Counted from the stretch's first letter, positions 47,564 to 59,645 are shown. The stretch is 64,000 nucleotides of DNA from Leptospirales bacterium (GCA_019694655.1 JAIBBN010000003.1:124001-188000); one strand, 5' to 3'. The notes: a model not told the origin generated them from the letters alone. A program made the numbers and translations.

Positions 47564-47588
47564 AAGCGGCGCGCAGGCCGAGCCGCTT
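47564..47588 (-). terminator. Hairpin just after the membrane cyclase stop
   Basis: AAGCGGC and GCCGCTT form a perfect seven-pair stem with an 11-base loop, starting at the stop codon of the cyclase read on the reverse strand. No U-run follows, so it is at best a weak or factor-assisted terminator before the lipoprotein/GDT1 pair; it could also protect the 3' end of the mRNA. Confidence 0.35.
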
Positions 47589-48871
47589 TATACCACCAGC
47601 CGCGCCCGCTCTTTTTGAAATGCCTCGTTGATCGTCAGGCCATCCGCAGAACAATAAGCAGGCTTGATGCCGCTCAAGAAATACATGTCGATCTCGCCTT
47701 TGTTTTTGGCGCCAATGCGACCGCGATATTCGAAATCAAACAGATGCTTGGTGCGTTCATAAACCGATGCACTGACATTGATACGACCGGGCATGCCGCT
47801 GGACTCCAGGCGGCTGGCGGTATTGACCGTGTCGCCCCAGACATCATAGGCAAATTTCTTTTCGCCAATGACCCCGGCGACCAGATCTCCGCAATGTAGA
47901 CCGAGTCTCAATTCCCAGTAGGGCTGGCCCTGCGCTTCGCGTTCGGTCTTCATACTCTGCATGAAACGCTGGATATCCAGCGCCGCCAAACAGGCATCGA
48001 TCGCATGCGTGGCATTGGATTGCGGAATGCCGCCTACGGCCATATAAGCGTCGCCAATTGTTTTGATCTTTTCCAATCCCCGTTCGCGCATGATCTGATC
48101 GAATGTGCGAAAGCAGGAATCCAATTCGGAAATCAGGTTTTCCGGACTGAGCCGCTCGGCAATGCGTGTGAAGCCCACGAAATCTGTGAACAACACGGTG
48201 GCGCTGGCGTATTGCTTTGGCGTGACGTGGTCCTCGCGTTTGAGTTCCTCGGCGATGCTCTCCGGTAAGACATTGAGCAAGAGGCGGTCGGACTTGTTTC
48301 TTTCTACCGTGAAGTTTCGCGAAAGAATCACAACCAGCATGCCCGTAAAAAATTGAACAAAGACATAGTTGCCGGCTACGTCCGGCAGACGATTGGCGGC
48401 GTCGGTATAGGGGCGAATGTAGCCTGGCGCCATAGTTTCAATGGCAAACAGCGCAGCCGTGGCCGAAAGAAAGAGCAGGCTGACCAGAATACGCTGCGCC
48501 AGGCTGCGCCCCAGAATATAGCCGATGGCCAGACCGGGAATCATGAAGTACTGCGCGCCGCCCTGCGAACCGGCATTGGCCAGGATGTTGAAAAACAGGT
48601 AGCCGCAGATGGTTAGCATCATCGGCCAGTAGAGCGAGTAGTAGATGCTGTGTACGCGAGAGAAGTAGTAGTAGACCAGAAATAAGATGCCTGAACCCAG
48701 GCTAAGGAAAAAGGAGATCTTGTCCGGGGCGCCGGGCAGTCCGCCCAGATTGGCCGCTGCACTGAACAATGCCAGGCTGTTAAAAATTCGGTGCTCCAGC
48801 GAATTTCTTCGCGGATCGCCAGTTACCCTGTGCAAGATCCGGAACCAGGCGTTCGTTATTTTGTGCATCAT
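47588..48871 (-). CDS. Class III nucleotide cyclase with six-helix membrane domain
   Basis: The 427-residue protein starts MMHKITNAW with GAGGAC upstream. About six membrane helices occupy residues 30-190, followed by a short linker (LLLNVLPESIAEELKRE, about 196-212) of the kind that joins membrane and catalytic parts of this cyclase class. In the catalytic domain (about 220-405) the metal Asp residues are in LFTDFVGFTR and KTIGDAYMAVGG. The substrate-site Lys and Asp are in KKFAYDVWGDTVN, and TASRLES supplies the transition-state residues. All catalytic residues appear present; cAMP is the likely product. The gene ends at a hairpin and lies downstream of the fusion-protein gene, same strand. 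Confidence 0.92.
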   Translation of the reverse strand: MMHKITNAWFRILHRVTGDPRRNSLEHRIFNSLALFSAAANLGGLPGAPDKISFFLSLGSGILFLVYYYFSRVHSIYYSLYWPMMLTICGYLFFNILANAGSQGGAQYFMIPGLAIGYILGRSLAQRILVSLLFLSATAALFAIETMAPGYIRPYTDAANRLPDVAGNYVFVQFFTGMLVVILSRNFTVERNKSDRLLLNVLPESIAEELKREDHVTPKQYASATVLFTDFVGFTRIAERLSPENLISELDSCFRTFDQIMRERGLEKIKTIGDAYMAVGGIPQSNATHAIDACLAALDIQRFMQSMKTEREAQGQPYWELRLGLHCGDLVAGVIGEKKFAYDVWGDTVNTASRLESSGMPGRINVSASVYERTKHLFDFEYRGRIGAKNKGEIDMYFLSGIKPAYCSADGLTINEAFQKERARLVV

Positions 48872-48951: not shown

Positions 48952-51516
48952 TCAGGCGCCAATCGGCGGCGGCCTATCCTCTCTCAAACGCTGCAAGAGC
49001 GCACCCAGAATTTGCAGATTGCCCATCGGCTGCGCCCCTCGCTTTCGATTGGCGGCGCCAATCTCGAACAGAATGCGCCACTGCCGAAAGAGCATGCGGT
49101 AGATCTGGCCGATGGTATAATCCGGATCGTAAATCACGGTCGCTTCGGCAGTCGCGCCGTTGAGTTCCAGCAGCGCCAGGTCTTCGCCGCGTCGAAAGGC
49201 CTCGCGATCGCTGTAGCGCACGTCGAAGCGTCCAAAGTAAAAGCCGTCAATCTGGTCGGCGATCTCATCGAAGCGACGACACAGGGATTCGTTGATTAGA
49301 GCAGCGCCATCGCGAAAGATACAGCCCTGGAAATGATTGCCGGTGCGGGTCAGGACAATTTCTTCGCCGTCTGCTGGCGTCTCTTCCAGTCGATCGGCAA
49401 AGCGCTTTAGATAGACGCGCCATTGCATTCGGTAGCGCGGATGGTCCAGAATCAGACGCTGTAGATTGCGCTTTCCGTCGCCGCGTAAAATAGGAAAAAC
49501 CTTCTCCGTGATGGCCAGAATTTCGCCCCTTTGCTGGTCCGGATAACGATAGTAGAATACGCCGGCCTCGCCGGGTCCGGCGTGGTAGCGCTGCAGCACA
49601 AGCGGCAACGGATTTTCCTGAAGAGCAAGTTGCAGTTGTGCGCGGTCATGGACGATGCGCAGACCGACGCCCTTTTCGCCGACATTCGGCTTGGAGGCCA
49701 GCGGAAAGCTAAGCCCTGCTGCACGCATCGCCTGCAACGCTGCGGACATCCGTTCTTCCAGCGGCGCAGGAGAGGCCAGGACATGTTGCAGTCGCCAGCG
49801 CAGCGGCAATTGATCCAGAATGCGCGCCTTGGATTCGCCAATGAATCCGCTGTTCTCCATGCCCGGATTAGAGGCGGTTACAGTTTTGAATCCGCCGTAG
49901 CGAATCGAGAGCCAGGCGCACCACGGGACCAGCGGCGCGTAGAAGATCCAGGGCGGCCAGAATTCGGGTCGTCGCATGCGGCCCAGACGGGCCAGCAACC
50001 TGGAGCGACCCTCGCGGCTGAGCAGGCCCATCAACAAGCGCAATAATAAGTAAATACTAATTATTGCCAGAGCCACGCCTGTCCACGCGCTGCCAGTGAG
50101 ACCCTGAAACCAGGCGGCCAGTCCGGCGCCAAAACGCGCTGTGGATAGCACCAGCAGGGGCGTCCAGATCAGCCCGGCAAGCAGCGCCGCTCCGGCCAGA
50201 ACGCCGGCGCGCCCGCCCAGCAGCCCGGCGCCCACGTAGGTTGGAAAACGCAGGCCCGGAACAAATCGACTGAAGAGGACCAGCTTCCAGCCTTCGCGAT
50301 CAAAGCGCCGACGAAGTTCCTCGAGTTTCTTCTGCGGCAGGCGATTGCGCAGGAAGCCCAGCGATTGCAGACCCGCTCCTGCAAGTCGCCCCAGGCCGTA
50401 GAGACCAAGGTCGCCCAGAAAAATCCCGATAAAGCAGGCAAAGACGGCGCTGATCGCGTCCAGCTTGCCGGCCTGAACCAGCAGGCCAGCGGAGATGCAG
50501 GTCAAATCCTCCGAAACAAACGTAGCGCTGATGATAGCCAGCAGTCGGCCCCAGGCGCTGAGCGTCGGATCCAGGCGCAGATCGACCGGCAGTTGCGGTT
50601 GTTGCAGATGCGACAGGCTTTCGCGTACTGCATTCCCGCTGCTTGCGCCGCGGTTGGTGCGTTCGATGAAGTCTTCAATCAATCGCGCCAGCCGCTGCGA
50701 TCCGCTCGCACTGAAGACCATAAAATGGCTTTCTTTCAGTATGACCAGATCGCTGTGCGCAACCAGACGATGGTGTTCCTCCGCCGCCCAGGCCGGAACC
50801 AGCGGATCGCGATCGCCGTGGACAAAAAGCGCCGGCACAGGAAGGTTGCTTAACTTCTGTCGCAGACTTCGCTGGTCGAGATCCATAAACTGCTTCAGGA
50901 AACCGTGGCGCATGGATGCGGAGCCAAGCAGTCCAAAATGTGGAAGTAGTTCGAGGCCTACAGCGAGGAAGGCGTAGCCCAGGTTGTACTTGAAGTGTTC
51001 AAAGGAATAGTCGCCGCTGCCTTCCGCTTCCTGAACGCCCAGGGCGCCGTAGGCAATGACACCCTGCACCCGCCGCGGCGCAAGAGAGGCCAGTTCAATG
51101 GCTACGGCGCCAGAGAAACTATGGGCAAAGATCCAGGCTGAATTCAGATGCAAGTGGTCCATCAGCCTGAGCACTGCCTGCGACTGGGCCGCAGCGCCAC
51201 AATCCGGCGCGTAGGCATCGGAATAGCCAGCGCACAAGAGGTCCGGGCTGATCACATGGAAGCGCCCGGCAAGAGCAGCGCTGATCCGCGACAGGTCGGA
51301 GGCAGTACCGGGGCTGCCGTGCAGAAGCAAGATCGCCGGCGCTCCCTGGCGCCCTTCTTCGCGATAGGCCATCCAGCTGCGTCGCTGGCCGGCGGCATTC
51401 AGCGCTACGAGCCGACGATCGGCGGGCAGCGATTCAGGGAAACCCTGAACAATTTGAGAGGCCAGCAGGGCCAGCAGGTAGAGAACAGCCGCTGGAAAGG
51501 CGCGACCGGACTTCAC
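48952..51516 (-). CDS. Three-domain fusion: alpha/beta hydrolase, DedA/VTT membrane domain, ATP-grasp
   Basis: The 854-residue protein starts at a GTG that overlaps the DinB stop. After a hydrophobic signal or anchor (about 8-25) comes an alpha/beta hydrolase (about 45-285) with oxyanion LLLHGSPG, Ser133 in FAHSFSGA, Asp235 in HGDRD and His264 in ESHF. Residues 325-500 form a DedA/SNARE-associated (VTT) domain with FVSEDLTCISAG, FLGDLGLYGLGRL and FSRFVPGLRFPTYVGAG. The last part (about 515-835) opens PEFWPPWIFY and NPGMENSGFIGESK, then an ATP-grasp fold with Lys609 (SKPNVGEKGVG) and Glu784/Asn786 (LLELNGAT). DedA proteins move lipids; ATP-grasp enzymes ligate carboxylates to amines or thiols. 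A lipid-linked synthesis/hydrolysis role is plausible but inferred. Confidence 0.85.
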   Translation of the reverse strand: MKSGRAFPAAVLYLLALLASQIVQGFPESLPADRRLVALNAAGQRRSWMAYREEGRQGAPAILLLHGSPGTASDLSRISAALAGRFHVISPDLLCAGYSDAYAPDCGAAAQSQAVLRLMDHLHLNSAWIFAHSFSGAVAIELASLAPRRVQGVIAYGALGVQEAEGSGDYSFEHFKYNLGYAFLAVGLELLPHFGLLGSASMRHGFLKQFMDLDQRSLRQKLSNLPVPALFVHGDRDPLVPAWAAEEHHRLVAHSDLVILKESHFMVFSASGSQRLARLIEDFIERTNRGASSGNAVRESLSHLQQPQLPVDLRLDPTLSAWGRLLAIISATFVSEDLTCISAGLLVQAGKLDAISAVFACFIGIFLGDLGLYGLGRLAGAGLQSLGFLRNRLPQKKLEELRRRFDREGWKLVLFSRFVPGLRFPTYVGAGLLGGRAGVLAGAALLAGLIWTPLLVLSTARFGAGLAAWFQGLTGSAWTGVALAIISIYLLLRLLMGLLSREGRSRLLARLGRMRRPEFWPPWIFYAPLVPWCAWLSIRYGGFKTVTASNPGMENSGFIGESKARILDQLPLRWRLQHVLASPAPLEERMSAALQAMRAAGLSFPLASKPNVGEKGVGLRIVHDRAQLQLALQENPLPLVLQRYHAGPGEAGVFYYRYPDQQRGEILAITEKVFPILRGDGKRNLQRLILDHPRYRMQWRVYLKRFADRLEETPADGEEIVLTRTGNHFQGCIFRDGAALINESLCRRFDEIADQIDGFYFGRFDVRYSDREAFRRGEDLALLELNGATAEATVIYDPDYTIGQIYRMLFRQWRILFEIGAANRKRGAQPMGNLQILGALLQRLREDRPPPIGA

Positions 51517-52049
51517 TGACGGTAGTAGGCCAGCGTAGCCGGCGCGACGCCCAGCTCAGGCGTCGGCGAGAGGCCGAAGGCGCGCATCTGGACGGCGATC
51601 ATTGCGGCGTGGTGTACGCCGTGGTGGTGAACAAATGCAATTTCGCGGAGCAGTGTGCTTGGAATCCAGATTGGCGCCTGGTCCGGATCAACATACATTT
51701 CAATCAAGAGATCGCGATCGTTCTGCAGCGAGGCGTTGCCATCGAGGTGCACCAGCAGTCGACGCAAGCGTTCGTGACCGGCATCGCGCTGGCTTTCTTC
51801 CGGTCGACCGCGTTGCCGGCGGTCATACTGTACGCGACCCTCGGACAAACCGTCCAGCAGGGCCTCGATATGGTCCAGCAGGTGGCGCAGGTGCGCGCCT
51901 ACAGTAGAAGGAAATGCCGGCAATTGAGTCCAGGCGTATGCGACGTCGCTCATCCTTTGCCAGATGTTGGCATCCACTTCCTCCAGAAAGCGTCCGAGAC
52001 TGCTCAGCGCTTCCTGCAGATCCGTTGCCTGACCCTGGTTTTCTTGCAT
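51513..52049 (-). CDS. DinB/YfiT-like four-helix metal-binding protein
   Basis: The 178-residue protein fits the DinB superfamily: a helical bundle with the metal-ligand pattern HLLDH (about 56-60) and HHHGVHHAAMIAVQM (about 141-155), where one His from the first and two from the second segment coordinate a divalent metal. GGGAG lies ten bases before the ATG. DinB relatives include bacillithiol-dependent and mycothiol-dependent transferases, and many are of unknown function. It is transcribed first and overlaps the three-domain fusion by GTGA, so the two products should be made together. A terminator-like hairpin lies in its leader. Confidence 0.82.
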   Translation of the reverse strand: MQENQGQATDLQEALSSLGRFLEEVDANIWQRMSDVAYAWTQLPAFPSTVGAHLRHLLDHIEALLDGLSEGRVQYDRRQRGRPEESQRDAGHERLRRLLVHLDGNASLQNDRDLLIEMYVDPDQAPIWIPSTLLREIAFVHHHGVHHAAMIAVQMRAFGLSPTPELGVAPATLAYYRQ

Positions 52050-52214: not shown

Positions 52215-53051
52215 ATGGAATTTCGCAGTACCGAGCGCTACTATTTGAGCCCCGAACTGGGCGCCATCGTCAATATGGCAATGGTCATGGAGCGGCCGCT
52301 GCTGCTGACAGGCGAGCCCGGCACCGGTAAGACGCAACTGGCATTTGAAATCAGTCGCAGTCTCGGAATGCCGCTGGAGGTACTGCGCGCCAAATCCACG
52401 ATTCGTGGCGAAGAAGCCTGCTATGTGCAGGACACTGTACTTCGACTGAATGATGCTCGCTTTGGCCCAGGCGCCAGCGGCAGGGACGTCAATCGCTTCT
52501 ACGACTATGTGATCTGGGGCCCGATTGGCCGCGCCTTTCGCTGCGCACAGCGCTCCGTGCTGTTGCTCGATGAAATCGACAAGACTGAGTCGGATGTACA
52601 GGACAACCTTCTGGATGTGCTGGAGTCGGCGGAGTTTACCATCCGGGAAGTCAACGAAACGATCCGCGCCAATCATCCGCCGCTGATCTTGATTACTTCC
52701 AACGCCAAGCGCGAGCTATCCGATCCCTTCCTGCGGCGCTGTTTTGCTCACCACATCGCTTTCCCAACGCCCGACGAAATGCGCGCCATTCTGCGGCTGC
52801 ATTTTTCAAACCTTGATACGGATCTGGCCGAGACGGCGCTGCGTCTGTTTTACGAATTACGTCAGCGCGGCTACGAAAAGGCCCCGGCCACCAGCGAACT
52901 GCTCAACTGGGTGGAGGCGCTGCAACGCAGCGCTACAGAGGCGTCAGCGCTTCATTCGGCGCGCGAGTTGCCCTTCATTGGCGCGCTGCTCAAGCGCAGC
53001 CAGGATTTGCTCAGCTACCGCGGCAATCCGCAGCACAGCGATGTTCGTTGA
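52215..53051 (+). CDS. MoxR-family AAA+ ATPase
   Basis: The 278-residue protein has Walker A LLTGEPGTGKTQLA (about 30-43), Walker B SVLLLDEIDKTE (about 114-125), sensor 1 ILITSNAKRELSDPFLRRC (about 155-173) with the Arg finger, and a small helical lid domain (about 190-270). This is the MoxR group, ATP-driven chaperones that usually act with a von Willebrand A protein on a metal enzyme or membrane complex. The next gene, overlapping by 11 bases, encodes exactly such a VWA partner. The target is unknown; the downstream cyclase and FecR genes may belong to the same transcript. Confidence 0.9.
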   Translation: MEFRSTERYYLSPELGAIVNMAMVMERPLLLTGEPGTGKTQLAFEISRSLGMPLEVLRAKSTIRGEEACYVQDTVLRLNDARFGPGASGRDVNRFYDYVIWGPIGRAFRCAQRSVLLLDEIDKTESDVQDNLLDVLESAEFTIREVNETIRANHPPLILITSNAKRELSDPFLRRCFAHHIAFPTPDEMRAILRLHFSNLDTDLAETALRLFYELRQRGYEKAPATSELLNWVEALQRSATEASALHSARELPFIGALLKRSQDLLSYRGNPQHSDVR

Positions 53052-54225
53052 TTTCGTCTACTTGCTGCGCCGCTACGGGGTTCCAGCTGGCCTAGACCAG
53101 AGTCTGGATTTTGTGCGCGGACTGCGCCGCGGATTGGCCGAGGACCTGGATTCGATCTTCCTGTTTGCTCGACTGTGTTTTGTGCGGCGGCCAGAACATC
53201 TCGATAGTTTTGAACGCGCCTTTGTATTCTATTTCATGGGCGTCGATTTGCCGGCGATGGCGGAGGGCGACCCAGAACTGCTGGAGAGCAAACAGTTTCG
53301 CGAATGGCTGCGCGCCGCAATCCAGCGCGGCGAGCTGCAGCCGATTACTCAGAACTTGAGCGCCGAGGAGCTGATGCGTCGCTTCTGGGAAACGGTGCGC
53401 CAGCAAATGGAAGCTCATCACGGAGGCTCGCGCTGGGTCGGCGTTGGCGGCGTGTCGCCTTTTGGACACAGCGGATTCGCCCGGCGCGGCGTGCGAGTGG
53501 GAGGTTCCAGCGGCCGGCAGAGCGCACTCCGCGTTTTCGGCGATCGCCGCTATGTCGACTATTCAGATGATCGATCGCTGGCCGGCGCAGGTTTGCGTCA
53601 AGCTCTGGGGGAACTGCGCAAGCTGGAAGCAGTTGGCGCCGAAAGCGAGCTGGATGCTCCTGAAACCATTCGCCGATCGGCGCTCAATGGCGGAGAAATC
53701 GAATTGGTTTTTCGCCGCGAACGCCGCGACCGTATCAAAGTAATTGCCCTGATCGATAACGGCGGCACATCGATGACGCCCTATGCCGCCCGTACGCGCC
53801 TGCTTTTTCAGAAACTGCGCGATCGCTTCCACGACTGCTCCATCTATTTTTTTCACAATACTATATATGAAACCATTTACCGCGATCCTCAGCGTAGCAA
53901 GGCCTGGGCCATCGAGCAACTCTTGCGCGAAGACCCAGAAGCGCGGATCATCATCATTGGCGACGCCAGCATGGCGCCAGAGGAGCTCTACTCGGCGTGG
54001 GGCGCGTCGGCCTGGAATGATGCCAGCGCCGTTCCATCGATTCAGATCCTGCGCCAGATCAAGCAACGGTTCCCGCGGACGGTATGGCTGAACCCGATGG
54101 CCGCCCATGTCTGGCAGGGCGGCCGCGGCGTCTGGAGCCTGGAGCGAATTCGCGAACTGTTTCGGATGGAGGAGCTGAGTTTGCGCGGTTTGAAGCGCGC
54201 CGTTCATTTCCTGAACGGAAAATGA
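53041..54225 (+). CDS. VWA-domain protein (CoxE-like), partner of the MoxR ATPase
   Basis: I start at the ATG at 53041 (MFVDFVYLLRRYGVP), overlapping the ATPase stop; a longer frame upstream is out of phase with the real MoxR gene and is not coding. The 394-residue protein has a helical N-terminal half (about 1-210), including a Gly/Ser-rich stretch around 130-165, and a VWA domain (about 225-390). Its metal-ion-dependent adhesion site reads LIDNGGTSM (about 240), a DxGGxS variant of DxSxS; IIIIGDASMAPEE (about 301) holds a later Asp. This resembles the CoxE group, which works with MoxR-type ATPases in enzyme maturation. Confidence 0.82.
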   Translation: MFVDFVYLLRRYGVPAGLDQSLDFVRGLRRGLAEDLDSIFLFARLCFVRRPEHLDSFERAFVFYFMGVDLPAMAEGDPELLESKQFREWLRAAIQRGELQPITQNLSAEELMRRFWETVRQQMEAHHGGSRWVGVGGVSPFGHSGFARRGVRVGGSSGRQSALRVFGDRRYVDYSDDRSLAGAGLRQALGELRKLEAVGAESELDAPETIRRSALNGGEIELVFRRERRDRIKVIALIDNGGTSMTPYAARTRLLFQKLRDRFHDCSIYFFHNTIYETIYRDPQRSKAWAIEQLLREDPEARIIIIGDASMAPEELYSAWGASAWNDASAVPSIQILRQIKQRFPRTVWLNPMAAHVWQGGRGVWSLERIRELFRMEELSLRGLKRAVHFLNGK

Positions 54226-54289: not shown

Positions 54290-56149
54290 ATGCAGGCTGG
54301 CGCATTCTTGCGGGAACTGATTCGCGGAGAGGAAGAGGGCGACGTTGGCGGCGCATCGCTCTCCGTCTGGACCTTGCGCGCTAAGTTGATGGTCATGATC
54401 ACTGCCGTCATTGCCCTGGCGCTGGTGCTGATGATCATACTGACCAACTATTTTTCGCAGCGCGATGGGCGCATTCGCGTGGAAGAAGCCAACACTCGCG
54501 TCACTCAGACATCCGCGGCCAGCGTCAGTACGATACTGGAGTCCACTCAAACTGCTGCGCGCATCGCCGCCGAGGGTCTGGCACACAGTCCGAATGCGCG
54601 CGCTGCTGTAGCGCGCACGCTCTTTGGCGCAGATTCTAACTGGCTCTACTTTGGAACCTATCGCAAGAGCGCAGGCGGGCTCATCGCCGGCGAGAATCTC
54701 AGCAACAGCGCATTCCTGTCGGCCAGCGAGTTGAGCGCCCAGGATCTGCAAGCGGCAGTGCTTGGTCGGCAGCGGGAGCTGGCGCGGGTCTCGGCCAGCG
54801 GAAGCGCCATGGTCAATCTCAGTCCGGCCTTGCGCCGGCCAGTGGCGGCGCTGTCCTTTACCAACGAACACGGCAACGAAACGCTGGTGGTGCTGCTCAA
54901 GATGGAGGCCTTCCTGGAGGCCTTTCAGTCGCGGGGCATTGCTGTGACCTTTCTGGTTTCGGACGATGGCGTGGCCATTGCTCATCCCGATCGTCGCGTT
55001 GCACTGGCGGCCACCAACATGGCCGAAGAACCGGCGGTGAAAGCCATGCGCGAGAGCCAGATCGACAACGGCCTTGGCCGTTTTCGCGGGCTGGACCAGA
55101 ACTTCTATCTGGCTTCCTTTCAGCGCCTGCCCTTTGGCGGCGGCGTAATCACCCAGGTGGCCGAAGACAGCGCCTTCGAAGAAATCTACAGCATCCGTCG
55201 GCGCAATATCTACCTGATGCTGATGATTGTCGCGGCTGCAGTGCTGGTAATCTATTTCTTCGCCCGCAGCATTTCCCGTCCGGTCAAGCGGCTGACCCGG
55301 GCCGCCGGCATGATTGAGGCCGGCAACTATGAGTTGCAGCTGCAGCCGGAAACGCGCGACGAAATCGGAACCTTAACGCAATCCTTCAATTCTATGGCTC
55401 GCGGCCTGCGCGAACGAGAAAACCTGAAGACCTCCTTTGGGCGCTTCGTCAATAAGGAGCTGGCTGAGCTCTCTCTTTCCGGCCAGTTGCGCGCCGGCGG
55501 GGAACGGAAGGACTGTGCCATATTCTTCTCCGATATTCGCGGCTTTACTGGCATCTCCGAAAAGCTGCGTCCGGAGGAAGTGGTGGAAATGCTCAATGGC
55601 TATTTCTCCGAAATGGTGGCCTGTGTGAATGCCAACCACGGCGTGGTTGATAAGTTCATGGGCGATGCTATCATGGCGGTCTGGGGCGCACTGCGCCAGC
55701 AAGGCAATCCAGTAGAAAACGCCTTCAACGCAGCGCTGATGATGCGTCAGCGCCTGCGTCAATTCAATCAGCGCCGCGGCAGCGCACGCAAACCGATTCT
55801 GCGCATTGGCGCCGGAATCAATGCTGGATCGGTGATCGCCGGGCAAATTGGCTCCGATCAAAAGATGGAATACACCGTAATTGGCGACGCCGTCAACACC
55901 GCATCGCGCGTTGAGGGCTTGAGCAAGGTGCATAAGCTGGATATCCTGGTGACCCAGGAAGCGCTCGATCGGGTACGCGGAATGTACCGCACCGAGCTGG
56001 TGGACGAAACGCAGGTCAAGGGACGCAACAAGCCGGTGCGCATCTACGCATTGCTTGGGAAAATTGGCGATGCCGACGCTCCCGAATCAACGTCAGAGCT
56101 GCGCAAGCTGCTGGGCATTGAAGCGCCCAGAGGGAGCAAGAAGCGCTGA
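54290..56149 (+). CDS. Transmembrane sensor class III cyclase with HAMP domain
   Basis: The 619-residue protein has a GGGAG site six bases upstream. A membrane helix (about 33-52) is followed by an extracytoplasmic sensor domain (about 55-300; dCache-like, with FLVSDDGVAIAHPDRRVA near 220) and a second helix (about 310-328). A HAMP domain (about 330-385, SISRPVKRLTRAAGMIEAG) connects to the catalytic domain (about 400-595). Metal Asp residues are in FFSDIRGFTG and KFMGDAIMAVWG, the purine-site Lys is in SDQKMEYTVIGDAVN, and TASRVEG completes the set. It should convert an external signal into cAMP. Its stop overlaps the ATG of the FecR gene by one base, a pairing that suggests joint sensing. 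Confidence 0.92.
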   Translation: MQAGAFLRELIRGEEEGDVGGASLSVWTLRAKLMVMITAVIALALVLMIILTNYFSQRDGRIRVEEANTRVTQTSAASVSTILESTQTAARIAAEGLAHSPNARAAVARTLFGADSNWLYFGTYRKSAGGLIAGENLSNSAFLSASELSAQDLQAAVLGRQRELARVSASGSAMVNLSPALRRPVAALSFTNEHGNETLVVLLKMEAFLEAFQSRGIAVTFLVSDDGVAIAHPDRRVALAATNMAEEPAVKAMRESQIDNGLGRFRGLDQNFYLASFQRLPFGGGVITQVAEDSAFEEIYSIRRRNIYLMLMIVAAAVLVIYFFARSISRPVKRLTRAAGMIEAGNYELQLQPETRDEIGTLTQSFNSMARGLRERENLKTSFGRFVNKELAELSLSGQLRAGGERKDCAIFFSDIRGFTGISEKLRPEEVVEMLNGYFSEMVACVNANHGVVDKFMGDAIMAVWGALRQQGNPVENAFNAALMMRQRLRQFNQRRGSARKPILRIGAGINAGSVIAGQIGSDQKMEYTVIGDAVNTASRVEGLSKVHKLDILVTQEALDRVRGMYRTELVDETQVKGRNKPVRIYALLGKIGDADAPESTSELRKLLGIEAPRGSKKR

Positions 56150-58383
56150 TGTTTCGGCTGCGGAATCTAGAGCGCTTCCTGCCGCCAGCGCTGCTGTTTT
56201 TGATCATCGGAGCCGGCCTGGCATTCTATCTGGACTACAATCGCAGCGTCGACCTTGGTTCGCGCGAAGTCATTGGTTATATTACCTATAAGTACAATCT
56301 TGTGCAGCGCAAATTCGATGATCAAGTAGTCTGGGCCAATTTGCAGAACAACAGCATGCTGGCCAACCGCGACACGGTGCGCAGCGAAGACTACAGCGAG
56401 GCCCGTATTCATCTGCGCGATGGCACCGTCATCAATGTCGATGCCAACACAATGATCTATCTGGAACTCACCGACGATCGCGCGCGGATCCATTTTCGAT
56501 CCGGCGCCATTCGCATTGACCAGTCCGAAAATGGCAATAGCGTCGAAGTGCAGGCCGGCGAACGCCAGATCAGGGCCGAGGGCGCCGATTTCAGTCTGGG
56601 CGATGGCGAAGGCGGATTGCACGTAGCGGTGGAACGCGGCCAGGCCGAATTGCGCAGCGGCAATTCGCTGCAGAGCGCCGGCGCCAATCAATCGGCGGTG
56701 CTGGGCGACAGCAACGTCGCGGTCCGCGATCAGCCGGTTCGGGCGCAATCGCCGGCGAACCTTTCGGTAACGCCGGGCGGTCCGGATGGCGCCAACGTAT
56801 CCTTCCGCTGGGAATTGGTCAAACCGCTCAAGGACCTGCACCTGCAAATCAGTGCGCATCGCGACTTTCGTCGCCTCGAGCGCAATCAGCCAGTAAGCGG
56901 CGGCGCCGCCGTAGTGCACCTTTCGCCGGGCGGTTGGTACTGGCGCCTGCAGGGAGTCAACGAACAGGGACGCCTGGAAAGTACCGAGCCGCGTAAGGTA
57001 GCAGTAGTGAGCAATACGGCGCTGCGTCTGTTTGCGCCGGCCGACAACGAGCGTCTCAGCTTTTTGCGTCAGTCGCCAACCATTCAGTTCAGCTGGTCGC
57101 CGCAGCCCCTGGCCCGTGAATTTGAACTGCAACTGGCCAGCGATCCAGGCTTTCAGAATATTGTGCGCAGCGAGCGCAGCCAGTCCGCCGGGATTGGCCT
57201 CAGCGGCCTGGCTGCAGGACAGTACTACTGGCGGGTGCGAAGCATCCCGGCGCTGGAAAACGTGGCGCCAGCGCTCAGCGTGGCGCGGCGCCTTCAGCTG
57301 CGCCAGAGCGATCGTGCGGCTGCGCCAAGCGCCGCGACGCCTGGCAACAATGCAGAAGTGCCGGCAAATCAGGCGGCGCTCTTGACCTGGAACAATGTTC
57401 CCGAAGCGCGACGCTATCGCGTCATCGTTTCCCCGCGGCCTGATCTCTCGGCGCCCGTGCTCGACGCCACCACGTCCCAGAACTTCATCGAAAGTCCGCC
57501 GGCGCCGCCCGGCGCCTACTACTGGCGGGTTGAAGCAGAGACGCCGGCCGGAACGGCGTCCTCTCCACTGTCGCGTTTCAATCGACGTACGTCCGAAGCT
57601 CAGGGCGATCCTGAAGCAACGCCGGCGGCGGACGCTGCAGGCAGCGAGACTGCTGCCGAAGTCGGCGATCAGGACGGCCAGGGGCCGCCGGCGGCGCCGG
57701 ACAATTTCGTTTTCCAGTCGCCCGCATCGGTTCGCTGGCGTGCAATTCCGGGCGCGCGAAGCTATCGCTTTCAGCTGCGCAATTCTGGCGGACGCATTCT
57801 TGTCGATCAACGCGTCAGCACAGCGCACAGCGAGCTGCAGATTCCCGACGGCGCTTATCAGGTGCGCGCCGGCGCACTGGACGGGCGCGGGCAGGTAGCG
57901 CAATGGTCGGCCTGGCGCGCTCTGCAGGTGACTGCGCGCAGCGCTCCACAGTCCGCCGATGCAGCGTCGGCTTCTACGCCGCCGGAACAGAGCCCCGAAC
58001 CATCGCCAGCCGCGGAGCGCAGCGACTGGGAAAACAGCAGCTTTGCAGAGTATCTGGCCTATGTGCAACGCCTCGATCGCCGCTGCGGTCCGCGTGAAAC
58101 GCCCGATCTGCTCATCGACCATTGCCAGGATAGCTATGTAACGCTGCGCCTGGCCAATCGCGAGCGACGTGACGTATTCTTTTTCATTCGACTGATCGGC
58201 GGCAATCTGTATCGCCGCATGGACGCCTACCGTTACTTTGGTTCGCGTTGCCCGCCCGTCTTTCAGCCGGCGCGCGAGTTCATGCTCCGACGACAGGCCG
58301 ACCTGGCAAACACGCCGGAGTTTGACGAGAAGCGTTCGCTGTCCAATGCGCTGACGGAACTCTCCCGATGCCAGGCGCGATGA
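56149..58383 (+). CDS. FecR-domain protein with fibronectin-like repeats
   Basis: The 744-residue protein has one N-terminal membrane helix (about 10-28), so most of it is extracytoplasmic. A FecR-type domain follows (about 60-190: ARIHLRDGTVINVDANTMIY, IHFRSGAIRID). Three or four beta-sandwich repeats come next, each marked by a closing YYWRV or WYWRLQ motif (at about 264, 359 and 462). A Gln/Ala/Pro-rich spacer (about 485-515) and a fourth repeat precede a Cys-containing C-terminal domain (about 630-744). FecR classically transduces iron-siderophore signals to a sigma factor; no sigma gene is here and the neighbour is a cyclase, so the output may differ. A 739-codon frame on the opposite strand is a composition artefact. 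Confidence 0.85.
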   Translation: MFRLRNLERFLPPALLFLIIGAGLAFYLDYNRSVDLGSREVIGYITYKYNLVQRKFDDQVVWANLQNNSMLANRDTVRSEDYSEARIHLRDGTVINVDANTMIYLELTDDRARIHFRSGAIRIDQSENGNSVEVQAGERQIRAEGADFSLGDGEGGLHVAVERGQAELRSGNSLQSAGANQSAVLGDSNVAVRDQPVRAQSPANLSVTPGGPDGANVSFRWELVKPLKDLHLQISAHRDFRRLERNQPVSGGAAVVHLSPGGWYWRLQGVNEQGRLESTEPRKVAVVSNTALRLFAPADNERLSFLRQSPTIQFSWSPQPLAREFELQLASDPGFQNIVRSERSQSAGIGLSGLAAGQYYWRVRSIPALENVAPALSVARRLQLRQSDRAAAPSAATPGNNAEVPANQAALLTWNNVPEARRYRVIVSPRPDLSAPVLDATTSQNFIESPPAPPGAYYWRVEAETPAGTASSPLSRFNRRTSEAQGDPEATPAADAAGSETAAEVGDQDGQGPPAAPDNFVFQSPASVRWRAIPGARSYRFQLRNSGGRILVDQRVSTAHSELQIPDGAYQVRAGALDGRGQVAQWSAWRALQVTARSAPQSADAASASTPPEQSPEPSPAAERSDWENSSFAEYLAYVQRLDRRCGPRETPDLLIDHCQDSYVTLRLANRERRDVFFFIRLIGGNLYRRMDAYRYFGSRCPPVFQPAREFMLRRQADLANTPEFDEKRSLSNALTELSRCQAR

Positions 58384-59645
58384 CACGCAGCTGGCAATGG
58401 ACCGTAGCTGCGGCCCTGACTGCGGGCTACGCTGGCTTTTACTTCTGTCGCAGCAACTTTGCGGTGGCCGAAGGCTTGATGAGCGCGGAGTTCGGACAAA
58501 GCGGAATTTCGCAGAGTCAGATTGGCTGGATTGCCAGCCTCGGTATTGCCTTTTACTTCGTTGGCAAATTTCTTTCAGGCATCGTCGCCGATTTTCTTGG
58601 CGGACGCGCGGTCTTCTTTCTGGCCATGGCTCTTTCGGTCTTCTTCACCGTGCTGGGCGGCGTCGCCGCCACGCCGCTGGTCTTTGCCGTATTCTGGTCC
58701 GCCAACCGTCTGGTGCAATCCGCCGGCTGGCCCTCATTGGTCAAAATTGCCTCGCGCTCTTTTGCCCACAGCTGGCAGGGCAGCGCGCTGGGCTTCATTT
58801 CAGTTAGCTATCTGGCCGGCGATGCTATCGCTCGCGCCTACTTCGGCAGCTTGATCGCCGGCGGCATGGGCTGGCGCGGCATATTTTTCTCCGCCGCTAT
58901 CGCTCTGGCGATCATTGCCGCACTCTGCGCCCTTGCTATTCTGCCGGCGCCTGAGATGACTCTGGAAGAGCAGGGCGAGCTGGCCGAGGAACATCTCTTC
59001 GGTCATCACCACGGAGAGCATCAGGGGGTGCGCGCCGTCCTGGCTCATCTGCGTCCCTACATGCTCAGCCCTCGTTTCTGGCTGGTAGCGGCGATGAGTT
59101 TTGCACTGACCTTTGTGCGCGAGACATTCAACTTCTGGAGCGTGGCGCTGCTGCGCGACGTCGGCGGTCTCGATCAGGCCAGTGCTGTGCTCGGCAGCGC
59201 AATTTTTCCGGCGGCCGGAGCGCTGTCCACCATTGGCGCTGGTCTGCTCTCCGATCACCTGGCGCGACGTCGAAGGGTATTGATCATTTTGCCGGGCATT
59301 GCCCTTGGAGCGACGACGCTGCTGGCGCTGTATTGGGGCGGCGCTGCCTTACCGCTCTGGTCGCTGCTGCTATTTACTGCACTTTCGGCGCTCTTTCTCA
59401 TCGGTCCCTATTCGCTGCTTAGCGGCGCAATGGCTGTCGATCTTGGCGGCCGGCACGGCAGTTCTACTGCCGCCGGCCTGATTGATGGCATTGGCTATGT
59501 TGGCGCGCTATTTTCCGGCTGGGGAGTGGCAATGCTCGCGGCGCACAGCGGCTGGCAGTCAGTTTTTGGCTTGCTGGCAGGCGCCTGCGTGATGGCCTTC
59601 CTCGCCGCCCTGAGCTACTATCTGTTGCGACGCCACGGATCATAA
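58368..59645 (+). CDS. MFS transporter, organophosphate:phosphate antiporter (GlpT/UhpC) family
   Basis: The 425-residue protein has 12 hydrophobic helices with the family opening AGFYFCRSNFAVA (about 20-32) and a loop GKFLSGIVADFLGGR (about 66-80) matching the MFS cytosolic motif. A His-rich central loop (EEHLFGHHHGEHQG, about 205-218) separates the halves. ADLGGRHGSSTAAGLIDG-like sequence near 360-378 matches the second half of OPA carriers. Substrates in this family are phosphorylated C3 or sugar compounds or the UhpC-type sensor role; the exact one is unclear. Start alternatives are ATG at 58368 and ATG at 58380, the latter overlapping the FecR stop as ATGA. It ends the five-gene run from the MoxR gene. 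Confidence 0.88.
   Translation: MPGAMTRSWQWTVAAALTAGYAGFYFCRSNFAVAEGLMSAEFGQSGISQSQIGWIASLGIAFYFVGKFLSGIVADFLGGRAVFFLAMALSVFFTVLGGVAATPLVFAVFWSANRLVQSAGWPSLVKIASRSFAHSWQGSALGFISVSYLAGDAIARAYFGSLIAGGMGWRGIFFSAAIALAIIAALCALAILPAPEMTLEEQGELAEEHLFGHHHGEHQGVRAVLAHLRPYMLSPRFWLVAAMSFALTFVRETFNFWSVALLRDVGGLDQASAVLGSAIFPAAGALSTIGAGLLSDHLARRRRVLIILPGIALGATTLLALYWGGAALPLWSLLLFTALSALFLIGPYSLLSGAMAVDLGGRHGSSTAAGLIDGIGYVGALFSGWGVAMLAAHSGWQSVFGLLAGACVMAFLAALSYYLLRRHGS

Follow-up and report, generated by a model that had tools for sequence, protein, structure and literature searches.

A hydrolase-VTT-ATP-grasp fusion with an adjoining DinB gene in a Leptospirales bacterium and its association with aminolipid pathways

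What might a single polypeptide accomplish by joining a hydrolase, a membrane domain of the lipid-transporter type and a ligase? The question is raised by a gene of a Leptospirales bacterium, located in a stretch of 64,000 nucleotides (GCA_019694655.1, JAIBBN010000003.1:124001-188000; the window, whose numbering is used throughout). The gene (48952-51516, minus strand, GTG start) encodes 854 residues comprising a membrane anchor, an alpha/beta hydrolase, a VTT domain of the DedA type and an ATP-grasp domain. Directly upstream lies a DinB-like gene of 178 residues (51513-52049, minus strand), whose TGA stop overlaps the start of the fusion by four bases (GTGA, 51513-51516, minus strand), an arrangement likely to couple their translation. 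Both frames, the exact coordinates and the overlap are as an original prediction from the sequence of the window had them. Based on gene order and gene content in relatives, association of the fusion with an aminolipid pathway is well supported. Our favoured reading, to which we assign a probability of about 0.55, is that the fusion is an enzyme that tailors and translocates lipids in an aminolipid pathway of the ornithine-lipid type; topology, substrate, product, step order and direction of the proposed route we infer.

Gene neighbourhoods of the fusion and its relatives

The search covered the window's relatives, Acidobacteriota and Gemmatimonadota, and it gave 65 loci, a few of them cut by contig ends: 32 with the hydrolase-VTT-ATP-grasp order, 26 with VTT-ATP-grasp, 5 with ATP-grasp only and 2 with hydrolase-ATP-grasp, a form that is also seen in a Phycisphaerales locus (L023). 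The full fusion is thus present in more than 30 genomes rather than only here by a frame-shift-like join, and an origin by frame shift or assembly error is ruled out by the 32 full fusions together with the conserved gene order. The predicted tie between DinB and the fusion likewise recurs in many genomes, with DinB directly upstream on the same strand at 15 of the 18 loci of the window's class that have enough sequence. Because both features recur, neither the fusion nor its linkage to DinB is the product of chance or of an assembly join.

The connection to aminolipid synthesis comes from the genes nearby. Acidobacteriota and Gemmatimonadota often have the full order GNAT (OlsB-like), PlsC (OlsA-like), DinB, TANGO2, fusion on one strand with short overlaps, and the GNAT gene is upstream on the same strand at 26 of their 38 loci with enough upstream sequence. 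Among 29 loci of Acidobacteriota, 17 have an OlsB-family GNAT gene upstream, and PlsC and DinB are each upstream at 16; a TANGO2-family gene lies nearby at 9 loci, upstream at 4 and downstream at 5. All 9 usable loci of Gemmatimonadota have GNAT and PlsC upstream, and 4 have DinB and TANGO2. In NCBIfam the top match is OlsB for the neighbouring GNAT proteins and OlsA for the PlsC proteins (E 1e-35 to 1e-47). Across genomes, too, the association with the OlsB family is strong. PF13444, the family of the OlsB-type, archetypal aminolipid N-acyltransferases (PMC11631085), was found in 32/36, 18/19 and 26/27 genomes with the ATP-grasp gene in three groups, compared to 28/211, 13/181 and 14/34 genomes without it, and overall in 76 of the 82 genomes carrying the ATP-grasp; a distance of 1.4-5.0 kb separates the two genes in 40 genomes. 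Adjacent N- and O-acyltransferase genes do not occur beside the fusion in the window, whose genome has its one TANGO2-family gene elsewhere, not adjacent to the fusion, and in the window's class OlsB is for the most part not next to the fusion. The sole genome of that class with the ligase and no detectable PF13444 (G007, locus L027) is represented by an assembly that is 81% complete.

Relatives from other lineages have the fused parts as separate, neighbouring genes; this applies to the Vibrionaceae and to Paracoccus. Vibrio sp. THAF191d has a row of VTT (204 residues), ATP-grasp (376), DinB (184) and TANGO2 (248), followed by a 158-residue frame, a DoxX-like gene and an OlsF-like synthase (E 5e-128). 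The Salinivibrio row consists of VTT, ATP-grasp, DinB and NRDE, and one record names its ATP-grasp a D-alanine--D-alanine ligase. In Paracoccus denitrificans PD1222 the ATP-grasp gene PDEN_RS24485 adjoins the separate alpha/beta hydrolase gene PDEN_RS25810 and the VTT gene PDEN_RS24475, and in Variovorax it is followed by an OlsB-like gene. A Balneolaceae relative (L025, 3154-4737) has hydrolase and VTT but no ligase, and its gene comes after one for PlsC; the region of its catalytic serine is degenerate (AHGYGG).

On a tree of the ATP-grasp domain the hydrolase would have to be gained or lost at least 8 times, a number inflated by L124, L126 and L130, which were scored as lacking the hydrolase and are cut by contig ends. 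DinB is next door in about 21 of 23 hydrolase-less VTT-ATP-grasp forms versus about 14 of 30 full fusions, in a hand count confounded by relatedness.

Further proteins were seen around these genes. One of some 130 residues, a DoxX-like membrane protein and possibly another component of the system, is encoded beside the ATP-grasp or DinB genes at 15 loci in several phyla (e.g., L040 2597-2986, L032 6797-7189, L103 7708-8109, L097 10483-10878 and L161 9808-10260), in addition to Vibrio. Upstream of the OlsB-like gene, about 10 loci in two phyla (among them L110 1953-2708, L116 7164-9091, L118 3057-4127 and L127 12949-13995) have a hydrophobic protein of about 350 residues and a companion with the motif FE[FY]GT.R.[FY]EG, for which no clear Pfam match was obtained.

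Domains and predicted topology

The original prediction of a three-domain fusion agrees with Pfam matches above cut-off for hydrolase and VTT, and with profile and fold for the ATP-grasp. The last of these, the C-terminal third (residues 518-830; 49027-49965, minus strand), is on profile and model evidence an ATP-grasp superfamily domain with predicted ligase activity. Pfam matched no family to the C-terminal 340 residues of the window protein alone. A profile of 24 aligned relatives, in which the motifs N-P, G-E-S-K, K-P, G-D-G, R-x-D and E-x-N-G are conserved, matches solved RimK-type ligases and cyanophycin synthetases (E 6e-9 for 8fxh, 1.4e-8 for 7txv); single relatives match cyanophycin synthetase and RimK models, and Pfam RimK is found in 14 of the 24. 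In the AlphaFold model, residues 521-819 superimpose on the cyanophycin synthetase CphA1 (7wae) with Z 14.2 and a root-mean-square deviation of 4.3 over 263 residues. An ATP-grasp match to this part, on whose absence the prediction would have fallen, was therefore obtained in two ways. Signature residues are E518-F-W-P, N550-P551, G-E-S-K (560-563), K609, GDG (679-681), R763, D765, E784, N786 and E791; since K609 is present in 68/68 and E784 and N786, like D765, in 67/67 sequences where aligned, the choice of Lys609, Glu784 and Asn786 as ATP-grasp residues proved correct.

CphA1 (7wae, 7txv) is closest by fold and among the closest solved enzymes by profile (E about 1e-8). It shares the motifs KP..G..G, GDG..t..eLi and E-x-N at 16% identity, the ATP-grasp part alone being common to both; the ligase of the window differs in its membrane linkage and its own signature of EFWP, NPG and GESK. 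Some records name relatives D-alanine--D-alanine ligase (L162 5920-7005 and L163 5917-7029, in Komagataeibacter and Salinivibrio), an annotation unsupported by profile and fold, which are both nearer to CphA and RimK. Genes so annotated, and others called hypothetical, form a single undescribed ligase family.

The alpha/beta hydrolase (residues 45-290; 50647-51384, minus strand) is supported by Pfam (Abhydrolase_1 at residues 60-175, 57.9 bits versus a cut-off of 25.8), catalytic triad, model and profile. Its triad consists of Ser133 (51118-51120), Asp237 (50806-50808) and His264 (50725-50727; all minus strand), each conserved in 34/34 aligned fused relatives. Serine and histidine had been correctly predicted, whereas Asp235, proposed as the acid, is variable and gives way to Asp237. 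The nucleophile elbow deviates as had been noted, with A-H-S-F-S-G in the window and G-F-S-M-G-G as the family consensus. The nearest solved enzymes by profile include lipases, polyhydroxybutyrate depolymerase and the Pseudomonas aeruginosa membrane phospholipase A PlaF (6i8w; PMC9132575), with PlaF alike over the whole domain (E 2e-22), and matches of the predicted structure agree (esterases, 6i8w). Unlike the window protein, PlaF is not fused to a transporter or a ligase.

The VTT domain (residues 320-500; 50017-50559, minus strand) belongs to the DedA family by its Pfam match (residues 344-458, 47.0 bits versus a cut-off of 33.9) and by the motif S-R417-F-x-P420-G-x-R423, in which R417 and P420 are each conserved in 33/34 and R423 in 34/34 sequences; lipid translocation is its predicted role. 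The R-x-x-P-G motif is shared with the DedA/VTT lipid transporters of the UptA family, from which the domain differs by its fusion to enzymes on both sides, and the UptA model gave 26.7 bits (E 5e-6) against a cut-off of 250 bits. Foldseek on the whole chain listed the hydrolase only, and the ATP-grasp match appeared in the VIA list alone, so the absence of VTT folds from the Foldseek list is uninformative.

Hydropathy and charge define an N-terminal hydrophobic helix (residues 6-24; 51445-51501, minus strand) with positive residues before it, a pattern repeated in relatives L022 and L119, and it is a predicted signal anchor that would place the hydrolase outside. PlaF is held in the membrane by an N-terminal helix, as is predicted here. 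Since positive residues also follow the last VTT helix, the pattern suggests that the hydrolase lies outside and the ligase inside the inner membrane.

The DinB protein scores 19.7 bits with Pfam DinB, under the cut-off of 23, and a relative (L037) scores 30.5, above it. Its histidines H53, H56, H143, H146 and H147 are conserved, with H143, H146 and H147 in 34/34 and H56 in 33/33 aligned among 34 linked DinB relatives, and H56, H143, H146 and H147 are likely metal ligands. The original prediction had suggested DinB as a possible thiol or metal transferase.

The favoured reading and its alternatives

In the mechanism we favour, OlsB-like and OlsA-like (or OlsF-like) acyltransferases would produce an acyloxyacyl amino acid, whose free carboxylate the cytoplasmic ATP-grasp domain would activate with ATP to form a peptide-type bond. 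The bond would most likely join the aminolipid headgroup to a second amine, from an amino acid or a taurine-like donor, so that the headgroup has two units. The VTT domain would carry the product across the inner membrane, where the periplasmic hydrolase, anchored by its own helix, may act on the acyl ester or the headgroup bond from outside, be it by hydrolysis or by acyl or headgroup transfer. DinB, with its putative metal site, and, where present, the N-terminal nucleophile (Ntn) hydrolase of the TANGO2 family may perform accessory steps. The main proposed steps have precedents, because acyloxyacyl aminolipids with two-unit headgroups (serine-glycine, taurine-ornithine) are known, and OlsI, an alpha/beta hydrolase, acts as an O-acyltransferase on aminolipids (PMC12493201). 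OlsH and OlsI of planctomycetes resemble the present system in pairing an ATP-dependent amide-forming enzyme with an alpha/beta hydrolase acting on aminolipids, but OlsH is GH3-like and not an ATP-grasp enzyme, no VTT protein is reported, and the genes are separate (PMC12493201). Ornithine-lipid synthesis by OlsBA or OlsF, to which the relatives' acyltransferases are closest (OlsF in Vibrio), has in the searchable literature no ATP-grasp, VTT, DinB or TANGO2 partner.

Several points weigh against the favoured reading. Gene linkage alone leaves the reaction undefined. The amino acid may be other than ornithine, because the neighbouring acyltransferases score under the equivalog cut-offs (OlsB-like 124-175 bits versus 320-350, OlsA-like 128-142 versus 300). 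Hydrolase, VTT, DinB and TANGO2 are each not always needed next door, because some loci lack them, and the one OlsB homologue (PF13444) of the window's genome is on another contig, not adjacent to the fusion. The co-occurrence of ATP-grasp and PF13444, significant by Fisher tests in the three groups (p 2e-19, 2e-16 and 3e-6 in the order given above), was assessed in a way that ignores phylogeny. The AlphaFold model of the fusion is of moderate quality, with a mean predicted local distance difference test score (pLDDT) of 61.7, and that of DinB, built from two sequences, reached a pLDDT of 47.2 and was not used.

The original prediction envisaged a route on which a lipid- or peptide-linked substrate is cut, carried and reconjugated; as salvage or recycling, this would mean cutting by the hydrolase outside, import through the VTT domain and reconjugation inside by the ATP-grasp. 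A lipid-linked substrate is supported by the OlsB and OlsA neighbours in relatives; the ordered route is conjectural, and we consider such salvage unlikely. It would use the same suggested topology, and proteins of the VTT/DedA kind bring lipid carriers back inside in other systems, although the UptA match is far under its cut-off. Against it, the relatives' neighbours are biosynthetic acyltransferases, and the hydrolase is missing from many members (26 of 65 are VTT-ATP-grasp, a few of these being cut by contig ends). Slightly less probable still is a shared membrane-stress module, with the fusion maintaining or scrambling phospholipids and merely co-regulated with aminolipid synthesis. Stress induces aminolipids (PMC12186959, PMC12493201), the hydrolase is similar to a phospholipase A, and OlsB in the window's class mostly lies apart from the fusion; however, the tight, overlapping gene order in Acidobacteriota, Gemmatimonadota and parts of Pseudomonadota argues otherwise, and a peptide-type ATP-grasp ligase is left unexplained by a phospholipid role.

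We likewise regard it as improbable that the ATP-grasp forms the first amide bond, between fatty acid and amino acid, either in place of OlsB or in its support. Activation of fatty acids by ATP-grasp enzymes, leading to N-acyl amino acids, has been described (PMC11631085), and for acyl-histidine in Legionella formation of the first amide bond by an ATP-grasp enzyme has been proposed. Yet the closest ligases form peptide bonds, and the first amide step is already provided for, because OlsB-like genes occur in these same operons and PF13444 in nearly all genomes with the ATP-grasp. Ligase, DinB and Ntn hydrolase recurring together also recall EgtA, EgtB and EgtC, which are a ligase, a DinB-containing enzyme and an Ntn amidohydrolase. 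By analogy, a protect-transfer-deprotect route with a lipid-bound intermediate could be imagined, but it is very improbable: the DinB proteins here are single-domain (170-180 residues), no signature of thiol chemistry was seen, and several operons are without DinB and TANGO2.

Returning to the tailoring-and-translocation enzyme, a bolder extension, which we put forward tentatively and judge somewhat doubtful, is that of an undescribed, widespread aminolipid system. A single trans-membrane chain would assemble a two-unit (peptide- or taurine-like) headgroup on the inside, flip the lipid and process it on the outside, with DinB and a bacterial TANGO2-family Ntn hydrolase as enzymes dedicated to the pathway. 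If true, a DedA-type domain would gain a cargo, and a TANGO2 relative a place in a pathway. Gene order across phyla ties five protein families to aminolipid synthesis, several of them with an obscure function (VTT-ATP-grasp, DinB and bacterial TANGO2). If the reading is right, new membrane lipids are predicted, and the human disease gene TANGO2 has a relative in a concrete lipid pathway. Paracoccus denitrificans PD1222, Salinivibrio and Azospirillum are named, culturable organisms suited to its study. ATP-grasp joined with VTT/DedA, DinB, TANGO2 or ornithine lipid is undescribed in the searchable literature, outside which most subscription papers fall, the sole relevant overlap being a review (PMC11631085). 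Each domain family is already known, and the class of product may, realistically, be a new one.

Surrounding genes in the window

Directly downstream of the fusion is a gene for a class III adenylate/guanylate cyclase (47588-48871, minus strand; Pfam Guanylate_cyc, 7.7e-52), probably a co-transcribed neighbour. In the window's class, other loci too have close relatives of this cyclase beside the fusion or its VTT-ATP-grasp form, encoded on either strand. No RNA families or tRNA genes were found in the 64-kb window. Divergent from the DinB-fusion pair are genes at 52215-54225 and 54290-58383 (plus strand) for a MoxR-type AAA ATPase, a vWA/CoxE-like protein, a second cyclase and a 744-residue protein, and the same group is divergent from the pair in relatives L028 and L029. 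A 739-residue open frame (56167-58386, minus strand) is antisense to the 744-residue frame (56149-58383, plus strand) over nearly its full length, probably as an effect of composition.

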